A stretch of DNA of 64,000 bases from Olsenella profusa F0195 (GTDB lineage Bacteria > Actinomycetota > Coriobacteriia > Coriobacteriales > Atopobiaceae): assembly GCF_000468755.1 (NCBI RefSeq), contig NZ_AWEZ01000043.1, forward strand, positions 124,001-188,000, in the 5' to 3' direction. Of the stretch, positions 34,742 through 38,652 are shown piece after piece. A model generated the notes under the pieces. It was not told where the DNA came from, ran no database searches, and was given only the letters and a program-made list of their open reading frames with translations. The position numbers and the translations under genes were made by a program. Numbering within the stretch: position 1 is the stretch's first letter; the number at the start of each line of letters is the position of its first letter.

Positions 34742-34975
34742 GTTGAGCGACACGTTCACCAAAAGACGCTATAAGGGCGTCGGCAGCCCACATACAGGAC
34801 AACGCAATCGTTGCCTTTCCCCTCCCACATGCCAGTGTTCTCCCGTTCCTAACGCACGCCATCAAAACAATGCAAGGGCTCGTGCGCCATCGCCTTGCTA
34901 CCGTGAAAGGCGTTCCTCATCGAGGATGCGCAGGCTGATCAAGGCCACGTGGGAACGGGTGACGGGAGCACACGG

Positions 34976-37102
34976 ATGCAGACAGGCAAGCACAACGGCA
35001 CACTCAACCAGGATCTCGCGCACGGGCACACTCATGGCCACACGCATTCCAAGGCCCACATCCACAGCCACAGGAACCTGATAGGCTTCAGTGAGCAGGG
35101 CATCCCCGTCGTCACGCGCGAGGCCGACCACAGCACGGGCGACGAGGAGGCCGATCGCAAGGCCTTCGTCAAGGACTACATGGATGCCATCAGGGCGTAC
35201 CGAACGTCCTTCCCCACCAAGGGCCAGCAGAGGGAGCTCACCCCCGACCCAGCGGTCAGGGAGATGATCGAGCGGTCCGACGAGTTGGGATTCAGCACCA
35301 CCTTCGACCGTTTCGACGCGCAGCAGCCACAGTGCAGCTTCGGCCTGGCGGGCATCTGCTGCAAGGTCTGCAACATGGGGCCCTGCCGCATCTCGGCAAA
35401 GGCGCCGCGCGGGGTATGCGGCGCCGATGCCGACCTGATCGTCGCGCGCAACCTGGCGCGCGCTGCCGCCGCCGGCGTGGCACAGCATGGCATGCACGCC
35501 CGTGAGGTCATCCTCACGCTGAAATGGGCAGCGGAGGGCAGGCTTGACCTGCCCATCCTGGGCAAGCAGAAGCTCAAGGCGACAGCCGAGAGGTTTGGCA
35601 TCAAGACCAGGGGCCGCCAGCTGAGGAACATCGCGCGCGACCTGGCAGACGCCCTACTCGAGGATCTGTCACGCACCAACCCGGAGCAGGAGTACCGTAC
35701 CATCAAGGCGCTGGCGCCGGCCGAGCGCCAAAAGGTGTGGGAGGACATGGACATCATTCCCATCTCCGCCTACCACGAGGTCTTCGAGACCTACCACCGC
35801 ACGGGCTGCGCGACCGACGGCGACTGGCGCTCCGTGATGGAGCAGTTCCTGCGCTGTGGCCTGGCCTTCACGTTCTCGGGCGTGACCGGGGCAAACCTGG
35901 CCACGGACAGCCTCTTTGGTGTGGGTGACCGCGTGACCTCCAAGGTGAACCTGGGCGCACTCAGGGAGGGTTACGTGAACATCGCGGTCCATGGGCACCT
36001 CCCCACGCTGGTGCATGCCATCATCGCGGTGGGTCACGAGGACGCCTTCATCGAGAAGGCCAAGGCTGCTGGCGCGAAGGGCATCCGCTTCTACGGCATC
36101 TGCTGCTCGGCCCTGTCTGCGATGTACCGCTACGGCGGCGTCATCCCCCTGTCGAACGCGGTGTCCGCCGAACTCGTGCTGGGCACCGGTGCGCTCGACC
36201 TGTGGGTGGCCGACGTCCAGGATGTGTTCCCCACGATCATGGAGGTGGCGAGATGCTTCAGGACGACGGTCGTGACCACGTCGGACAGCGCACGTCTGCC
36301 AGGCGCCGAGCGCTTCGAGTATGACCACCATCACTCCAACGTCGAGCAGACGCGCAGCCTGGCCGAGGCCATCGTCAACCGTGGCATCGAGAGCTTCCAG
36401 CAGCGTCGCGGCATCCCGGTGCACATACCACCGTATGAGGTGGACGCGGAGGTGGGCTTCTCGGTCGAATACGTGGCGCGTCGCTTTGGCGGGTTCGATC
36501 CGCTCGCAGAGGCCGTCAAGGACGGCCAGGTGCTCGGCATCGTGAACATGGTGGGCTGCAACAACCCGAAGGTCCCCTATGAGCGCTGCATCGTCGACGT
36601 GGTCGATGTCCTCCTGAGGAACAACGTCCTCGTCCTGTCCAACGGCTGCGCGTCGTTCCCCCTGATGAAGCTGGGCTACTGCAACGTGCGTGACGGGCAG
36701 GAACGCTGCGGGGCCAGCCTTGCGGAGTTCCTGGGCGACGACCTGCCTCCCGTGTGGCATGTCGGCGAGTGCATCGACAACACGCGCAGCACCGGCATCC
36801 TGGGAGGTGTCGCGGCGGCGGCACGGCAGCGCGTATGCGACATGCCGTACGCCTTCAGCTCGCCGGAGTGGTCCAACGAGAAGTCGGTGGACGCCGCCCT
36901 GGGCTTCCGCCTGCTCGGCATCAGCTCGTATCATTGCGTCGAGCAGCAGATCTACGGGTCCAAGAACGTCATCGAGTTCCTCAAGGAGGGCACGATGGAG
37001 ACCCTGGGCAGCCGCATGGTCATCGATGTCGACCCCAAGCGGCTCGGCCAGCAGATCGTCAATGACATGAGGGCCAAGCGAGTCGCGCTTGGCTGGGACT
37101 AA
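34976..37102 (+). CDS. cooS: Anaerobic Ni-CO dehydrogenase catalytic subunit, divergent CooS
   Basis: 708 residues; the family is usually near 640. The first 34 residues are His-rich (eight His between 16 and 32), an unusual possible metal-binding tail. The B/D-cluster cysteines are intact (QCSFGLAGICCKVCNMGPC, then GVCGAD). Among C-cluster ligands, the His (VHGHLP) and the Cys in GICCSALS, VGCNNPKV, SNGCAS and GECIDNTR are present, as is the Lys in SPEWSNEKSV. The ligand that is DVQC in known CooS reads DVQD (Asp416, codon 36221-36223). The enzyme class interconverts CO and CO2. No cooC, cooF, hydrogenase or acetyl-CoA synthase gene is adjacent. ATG 34976 has GGGAG upstream. Activity with Asp at the cluster is uncertain. 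Confidence 0.88.
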   Translation: MQTGKHNGTLNQDLAHGHTHGHTHSKAHIHSHRNLIGFSEQGIPVVTREADHSTGDEEADRKAFVKDYMDAIRAYRTSFPTKGQQRELTPDPAVREMIERSDELGFSTTFDRFDAQQPQCSFGLAGICCKVCNMGPCRISAKAPRGVCGADADLIVARNLARAAAAGVAQHGMHAREVILTLKWAAEGRLDLPILGKQKLKATAERFGIKTRGRQLRNIARDLADALLEDLSRTNPEQEYRTIKALAPAERQKVWEDMDIIPISAYHEVFETYHRTGCATDGDWRSVMEQFLRCGLAFTFSGVTGANLATDSLFGVGDRVTSKVNLGALREGYVNIAVHGHLPTLVHAIIAVGHEDAFIEKAKAAGAKGIRFYGICCSALSAMYRYGGVIPLSNAVSAELVLGTGALDLWVADVQDVFPTIMEVARCFRTTVVTTSDSARLPGAERFEYDHHHSNVEQTRSLAEAIVNRGIESFQQRRGIPVHIPPYEVDAEVGFSVEYVARRFGGFDPLAEAVKDGQVLGIVNMVGCNNPKVPYERCIVDVVDVLLRNNVLVLSNGCASFPLMKLGYCNVRDGQERCGASLAEFLGDDLPPVWHVGECIDNTRSTGILGGVAAAARQRVCDMPYAFSSPEWSNEKSVDAALGFRLLGISSYHCVEQQIYGSKNVIEFLKEGTMETLGSRMVIDVDPKRLGQQIVNDMRAKRVALGWD

Positions 37103-37800: not shown

Positions 37801-38652
37801 CTACGCCCCCAAGGTGTCAATCGGGATGACGTACACCCCATCCGAGCCTCGCCTGCGCGCCATCGTGCCCTTTCCCAACAGCACGGCCATGAAGCTGGGC
37901 TTGGGGTTGCGCGCCGCGGGATTTGCGGCCACCTTCGCAGCAAGCCGCATGAGATTGGCAGCTGCTTTCTCGACCTTCGACTCCCCCGTCTTGATCTCGA
38001 CGGCAGCCCACCGACCGTCAGCTAGCTCGATGATGGCATCAACCTCAAGGCCGTCGGCATCCGCGTAATACCGCAGGGAGCTCCCGTACGACTCGGGCAG
38101 GGCAGAGACGTAGACGAACAAATCGTGAATGCAGAGCGATTCGATCAAAAGACCAAGCAGCTGACCGTCTTTGAGCAAGTGTGAGGGGTCGACACCGAGC
38201 AGACTAGCCACGAGGGAGGTATCGCAGAGATAGCGCTTCGGCTTTGTGCGGAGCCTTGACCTCGATCTGATTGGGGCGTCCCAACCCGGCAGCTCCTCGA
38301 TGAAGTAGTTGCGCCTGAATTCCTCGAGATACGAGGATATGGTCGCATCGGCTGGGGCGACGTCGCCAAGGGCAGCGATGTCGCTTCTCATGGTGCCCAT
38401 CGTCGCACTTGTCGCCACGTTACGCGCGAGGGACGTGGCAATGCGACGGGACAGGACGGGGCTTTTCCCTGCATGGGGCATACTCACCTCGAACAGTGCG
38501 TCGAGATAGCCCGCTGCAACGACCTTGGGGTTCGTCGACTCGCCCGTCTGAAGAGCCGGCCATCCACCACGGCATACTTCGAGCAAATCCAACAACGATT
38601 TTCGAGTCAACTCGCTTTGGTCTTTCGAGGAGCTTGGGTACAGACGCACCAT
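37801..38652 (-). pseudogene. 5'-truncated ATPase with DUF4143 domain
   Basis: 283 codons corresponding to the C-terminal two thirds of a P-loop ATPase of the AAA_14/DUF4143 type. The N-terminal ATPase domain with Walker A and B is absent. What remains starts in the linker (SLLDLLEVCRGGWPAL), continues through the winged-helix-like SSYLEEFRRNYFIEELPGWD region and ends in the DUF4143 nuclease-like segment (SSLRYYADADGLEVDAIIELADGRWAAVEIKTGESKVEKAA). The remaining frame is clean, so truncation was at the 5' end. Short direct repeats flank it on both sides. Role of the intact family is unclear. Confidence 0.72.

Follow-up and report, generated by a model that had tools for sequence, protein, structure and literature searches.

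The window (the whole 64,000-nucleotide stretch of the Olsenella profusa F0195 genome analyzed here) carries a CooS-type gene whose product is a typical member of clade B, group B-1, of the CO dehydrogenases (CODHs), and which is an orphan copy horizontally acquired from Clostridia. Our favored explanation, held with a little less than even confidence, is that this functional acquired B-1 CooS homologue uses its N-terminal histidine-rich tail to load nickel into a rebuilt cluster, where a small sulfur compound would be turned into sulfide for CysK and MetY. Clade-B CODHs are biochemically uncharacterized in the literature, and in a 2026 survey their function was not deducible from the genomic surroundings (PMC13056359). 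The near-constant operon of CysK, CooS and an importer in the Cys-bearing sister group, the recurring sulfhydrylase genes and the mutual exclusion of tail and CooC make this function directly testable. If the sulfur role is true, Ni-Fe-S CODH chemistry reaches beyond CO2, and common anaerobes of the rumen, gut, and mouth that now count as possible CO users would have to be reclassified; if sulfide release is true, clade B would become the first CODH lineage known to have a role other than in carbon and energy metabolism.

The window gene and its product

The window protein matched the Pfam family PF03063 (prismane/CODH superfamily) with an E-value of 5e-132 and 441.5 bits (cut-off 27), came within 5 bits of the curated cut-off of TIGR01702, the equivalog for the Ni-CODH catalytic subunit (473.2 vs. 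478 bits), and reached only 7.5 of the 360.8 bits set for the hybrid cluster protein (HCP) model TIGR01703. Its AF2 model (pLDDT 85.4) has the full CODH fold, with 6t7j as the closest PDB structure (Z 56.6, rmsd 1.7, 618 residues). An in-frame upstream GTG at 34949 is a possible alternative start, and GGGAG stands just 5' of the ATG. Residue equivalences with CODH-II were obtained from an alignment of the window protein to solved CODHs, giving the following features:

34976..37102, plus strand: clade-B (B-1) CooS-type protein, 708 aa (PF03063, TIGR01702, AF2 model)
34976..35083, plus strand: N-terminal tail, residues 1-36, predicted to be disordered (pLDDT <50)
35021..35071, plus strand: His-rich stretch, residues 16-32, 8 His in 17, ending in the conserved HIHSHR motif
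35333..35419, plus strand: D-cluster C120 and C128 (CX7C) and B-cluster C129, C132, C137, and C148 (alignment)
35486..35488, plus strand: His171, equivalent to the acid-base His93 of CODH-II (alignment)
35996..35998, plus strand: His341, equivalent to the C-cluster His261 of CODH-II (alignment)
36101..36106, plus strand: Cys376-Cys377, equivalent to CODH-II Cys294 and Cys295, the latter being the pendant Fe ligand (alignment)
36221..36223, plus strand: Asp416 codon (GAT) at the position of CODH-II Cys333 (alignment)
36557..36559, plus strand: Cys528, equivalent to Cys446 of CODH-II (alignment)
36647..36649, plus strand: Cys558, equivalent to Cys476 of CODH-II (alignment)
36767..36772, plus strand: Glu598, specific to the Asp-type clade-B sequences, adjoining Cys599, equivalent to the Ni ligand Cys526 (alignment)
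36881..36883, plus strand: Lys636, equivalent to the catalytic Lys563 of CODH-II (alignment)
36932..36937, plus strand: His653-Cys654, invariant in Asp-type clade-B sequences and absent elsewhere (alignment), at the end of strand 651-653

All sequence details of the original prediction were borne out, namely the B- and D-cluster cysteines, the C-cluster His, the catalytic Lys, Asp416, and the eight His within 17 residues. The canonical C-cluster set of one His and five Cys is incomplete, with Asp416 standing at the Cys333 position. Like canonical CODHs (CODH-II, DvCODH; clades E/F), the protein has the CODH fold (Z ~53-57), the B and D clusters, the Ni ligands and the His93/Lys563 pair; unlike them, it has Asp for Cys333 and the clade-specific Glu598, Asn556, His653, and Cys654, and is without CooC or redox partner genes nearby.

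Placement in clade B

Inoue et al. (2019) defined group B-1 by an acidic residue (Asp or Glu) in place of the second C-cluster Cys together with a His-rich region at the N-terminus, which they likened to CooJ and HypB (PMC6344411). Since these are the same traits, the central claim of the original prediction was already known, and its treatment of the protein as an oddity does not hold, the same Asp and the CooJ comparison having been published in 2019. The window protein shares with this group the acidic residue (D416), the His-rich N-terminus with His-X-His repeats (8 His in residues 16-32, within the 4-48 of the group), the type II D-cluster (C120/C128) and the complete acid-base His/Lys pair (H171, K636), and it is 74% identical to the R. 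flavefaciens member. In the trees it nested with R. flavefaciens and Lachnospiraceae members at 99-100 support, while clade B and its Asp group each obtained a support of 100. A Cys-bearing sister group (L156-L166), 37-42% identical to the window protein, joined the Asp group with 100 support under two models at a place where long branches meet. This group appears B-4-like, a name given from its features and not from a published B-4 representative: it shares ancestry and the same transporter with the Asp-type sequences and has CysK directly upstream, but unlike the window protein it bears Cys at the 416 position and has no tail.

Asp occupied the Cys333 position in 89/89 clade-B relatives of the Asp type, 84 of which carried the tail (at least 5 His in 20 residues), while the 21 Cys-bearing sequences all had Cys and no tail; because similarity guided the choice of most of the 80 database relatives, the proportions apply to this group and not to CODHs in general. 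Eight further Asp-type loci came from a draw of 398 Bacillota_A genomes, 164 of them with CODH-type matches. None of the other 37 aligned CODH and HCP sequences had either trait, so that, instead of being common in ordinary active CooS, both are general to one uncharacterized clade.

Remodelling of the C-cluster site

Four further positions (Asn556, Glu598, His653, and Cys654) change together with Asp, without exception, between Asp-type and Cys-type rows, and Trp410, Tyr373, Tyr384, and others also co-change in the Asp-type rows. Judged from these alignments, Asp416 appears as part of a rebuilt site and not as a lone Cys-to-Asp swap. The residues with a known part in holding or loading Ni are all retained in the clade-B Asp rows. 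In the D. vulgaris CODH, Cys301, which lies beside the pendant-Fe ligand, is needed for Ni entry (without it the enzyme contains no Ni), and the iron on Cys340, the Cys333 equivalent, loses a sulfide contact upon cluster rearrangement (PMC6168284). The Cys301 equivalent (Cys376) is present in every clade-B row, an argument for continued Ni loading.

In the sequence alignment, the DVQ-x position is not filled by any other cysteine, but the invariant newcomers Cys654 and His653 are possible substitute ligands. In the AF2 model, Cys654 comes after strand 651-653; C528, C558, and C599 of the same domain are likewise placed after strands, a topology from which Cys654 could lie near the cluster. The Cys at the Cys294 position was dropped as a candidate new ligand, as CODH-II also has Cys at the aligned place. 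Apparent DYQT motifs at loci L058 and L079 proved to be motif artefacts, the alignment giving DVQD in both.

A carboxylate in place of one C-cluster Cys is also found in Carboxydothermus CooS-V (clade D-1), which has no CO activity (PMC9311411), and HCPs are the sister family; the window protein might accordingly be read as a Ni-free enzyme of this kind, with an Fe/S/O cluster reducing hydroxylamine or similar N compounds under stress. We regard this as rather improbable, because the lost residue differs (Cys295, replaced by Glu in the Ni-free CooS-V with its type III D-cluster, vs. Cys333 here), HCPs retain the Cys333 equivalent, the tail and cooC point to Ni loading, an HCP is already encoded by the host, and nitrosative-stress genes are absent among the neighbors. 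The D-1 trait, Glu at the first C-cluster Cys, is not found in the window protein, which retains C377.

The histidine-rich tail and CooC

The tail is closed by a HIHSHR-like motif in 79 of the 89 Asp-type sequences. The five rows low in His comprise one protein cut at a contig end, two short tails and two tail-less B-2 members. At loci L148 and L150, which have CysK directly upstream, the tails contain dozens of His, as many as 14 of them within 20 residues.

The search for CooC spanned 42 genomes. None of the 23 with a well-developed tail, both genomes of the window species among them, gave a CooC-grade match genome-wide (best <70 bits). CooC lay directly upstream of the CooS gene in both tail-less Asp genomes (301 and 607 bits, the second being the query itself) and was present in 11/11 Cys-type genomes and in one with a weak tail (G224), each of these also holding a second CODH. 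This exclusion, which is a correlation over a tree where independent switches are few, is new here; it supports the view that the tail replaces the separate Ni chaperone CooC, and with it the nickel-loading role that the original prediction had suggested for the tail. Like the His-rich Ni chaperones CooJ and HypB, the window tail has His-X-His repeats; unlike them, it is fused to the enzyme itself, and its Ni binding is putative.

Sulfur-linked gene neighborhoods

CysK is encoded directly upstream of CooS in 11/11 loci of the Cys-bearing sister group, and a set of substrate-binding protein (SBP), permease and ATPase follows downstream in 10 of them, the eleventh (L162) stopping at a contig edge; MetY is additionally found in two of these loci, with MetI as well in one. 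The Asp-type loci L148 and L150 show the same upstream CysK, and genes for MetY, PatB, and Rrf2 turn up repeatedly around B-1 members, most B-1 loci having the transporter only, with neither CysK nor MetY. Across 101 clade-B loci we counted SBP 81 times, CysK 23, MetY 15, MetI 7, PatB 5, and Rrf2 5, numbers that ignore kinship and come from loci of which a good part is cut by contig ends. CysK, MetY, and the clade-B SBP were all absent from 20 control CODH loci of similar span (0/20 each), and in the Bacillota draw CysK adjoined CooS in 13/19 clade-B loci vs. 0/20 controls (Fisher 3e-6, uncorrected for kinship). The neighboring CysK and MetY pass curated cut-offs for their identities. A NitT/TauT transporter has been reported in the operon for 64% of clade B (PMC13056359), and in Katayama et al. 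(2024) 'cysteine synthase' and 'ABC transporter' appear as contexts of gut cooS that are neither connected nor explained (PMC11338639); in the literature we found no paper joining the clade-B contexts into a sulfur role. The neighborhoods suggest that clade B is tied to sulfur assimilation, the wider link being new here.

The SBP of the transporter scores best to the SsuA family, and its best solved homologue is 3un6 from S. aureus (E 6e-87, 295 bits; next 79). In S. aureus, an operon of putative TauB/A/C and a formate dehydrogenase-like gene belongs to the CymR cysteine regulon and is 11- to 34-fold down with sulfide (PMC5480029); we infer that 3un6 is the SBP of this CymR-controlled, TauABC-like operon.

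The same transporter could instead supply nickel, as in the account of Inoue et al. (2019), with a NitT/TauT-type system importing Ni2+, the tail inserting it, and the enzyme being an ordinary CODH that tolerates an Asp ligand. The mutual exclusion of tail and CooC, the retained Ni-site and acid-base residues, the description of the SBP homologue 3un6 as metal-binding in that study (PMC6344411) and urease genes downstream of cooS in three Lachnoanaerobaculum loci all fit this account. We nevertheless consider it unlikely, because it leaves unexplained the CysK in all the Cys-bearing sister loci and the MetY, PatB, and Rrf2 genes near B-1, the transporter is also found where CooC, not a tail, serves (L154, L155), and its S. 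aureus homologue is in a cysteine regulon.

Clade-B enzymes as the sole sulfide source were rejected: 27 of 37 clade-B genomes, the window's included, have a sulfite/nitrite reductase (NIR_SIR) domain, so that the enzyme is not their only source of sulfide. A riboswitch search of the window and ten relatives gave no hit at the Rfam gathering scores.

Several other genes accompany clade-B cooS. Two small membrane proteins (~105 and ~130 aa; ..FWGASLMWLVDAVVEY.. and ..LNGMLWGGSGLLAFEHLWHGEITPFFPFLTAA..) flank it on either side, mostly in Ruminococcus; mem5 adjoins 36/101 and mem4 35/101 clade-B loci (e.g., L010:8062-8777), both without a Pfam or NCBIfam match. A urease operon (urease being another nickel enzyme) lies directly downstream of B-1 cooS in three Lachnoanaerobaculum genomes (L043, L049, L053). 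Two rumen MAGs labelled Thermoguttaceae/planctomycete (L102/G154, L098/G155) carry typical clostridial B-1 cooS with MetY/CysK, by contamination or transfer.

Proposed function

In the sulfur role that we favor, Ni2+ would be caught by the N-terminal His tail and passed on to the cluster site, the tail thereby standing in for CooC, which this genome lacks. The cluster would retain the canonical Ni and pendant-Fe ligands, while the cubane iron that other CODHs bind through Cys333 would face Asp416 in a rebuilt pocket with Glu598, Asn556, His653, and Cys654; a Ni-Fe-S cluster may form with Asp416, or with Cys654/His653, at one of the cubane irons. The enzyme probably has no part in CO-based energy metabolism. 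Most likely its substrate is a small sulfur compound, which in relatives would be taken up by the SsuA-like ABC transporter encoded next to the gene, and the reaction would make sulfide available to CysK and MetY. Between the two outcomes offered by the original prediction, an active variant or a protein moving to another function, the neighborhoods favor the latter, in sulfur assimilation, with nickel kept. A more specific version, in which clade-B CooS frees sulfide for CysK/MetY from a small imported C1-sulfur compound and the C-cluster is retuned for this substrate by the Asp/Glu/His/Cys changes, is speculative and falls well short of probable; thiocyanate or carbonyl sulfide (COS) would be our guess for the compound, from their likeness to CO2.

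Acquisition and maintenance of the window copy

The genome-wide CODH-family content of the window genome is one CODH and one HCP, the latter located at G000:C6:28846-30408. CooC, acetyl-CoA synthase, [NiFe] hydrogenase, and a second CODH were all missing genome-wide, so the orphan status first proposed from the surrounding genes extends to the whole genome. Unlike typical B-1 members, the window copy has no adjoining NitT/TauT transporter, and its host is an actinobacterium. Neither CysK nor the clade-B transporter lies beside the gene, and the sulfur role is thus borrowed from its relatives; the CysK of the genome is on a different contig from CooS, and the only related SBP, 23% identical to the clade-B SBP, lies elsewhere in another ABC system. 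This distant NitT/TauT-type ABC system, whose SBP has a CC motif in common with the clade-B SBP, lies near an MtaA-like methyltransferase (L170, G000:C48:7957-10906).

The CooS gene occurs in only 2 of 140 genomes of the host's bacterial family, both of the window species, and is missing from the other 138; a congener has the flanking MerR and XRE genes but no CooS gene with them. The window CooS nests among clostridial sequences in the trees, whereas its GC3 of 0.88 fits the host. It is intact in the second genome of the species (97% aa identity, dN 0.012, dS 0.115, dN/dS ~0.11), and hence is not the product of misassembly, nor is it decaying; it is under purifying selection. Rarity in the family, the gap in the congener, clostridial nesting, GC3, and dN/dS together indicate a gene that was acquired, ameliorated, and maintained.

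This selection also bears on whether the protein could serve to store metal or to regulate, as a CODH scaffold that has lost catalysis and is retained for its metal-binding tail. Tails with dozens of His in some relatives and the absence of a redox partner gene nearby would suit such a role; yet active-site residues are invariant over 89 sequences, dN/dS is low, and the tail-less B-2 members retain the same altered site, which makes it highly improbable in our view, and a working enzyme remains our preferred reading.

A minus-strand ORF at 37801-38652 resembles part of a DUF4143-type ATPase and lies beside the XRE and MerR regulators, which suggests a locally variable island.
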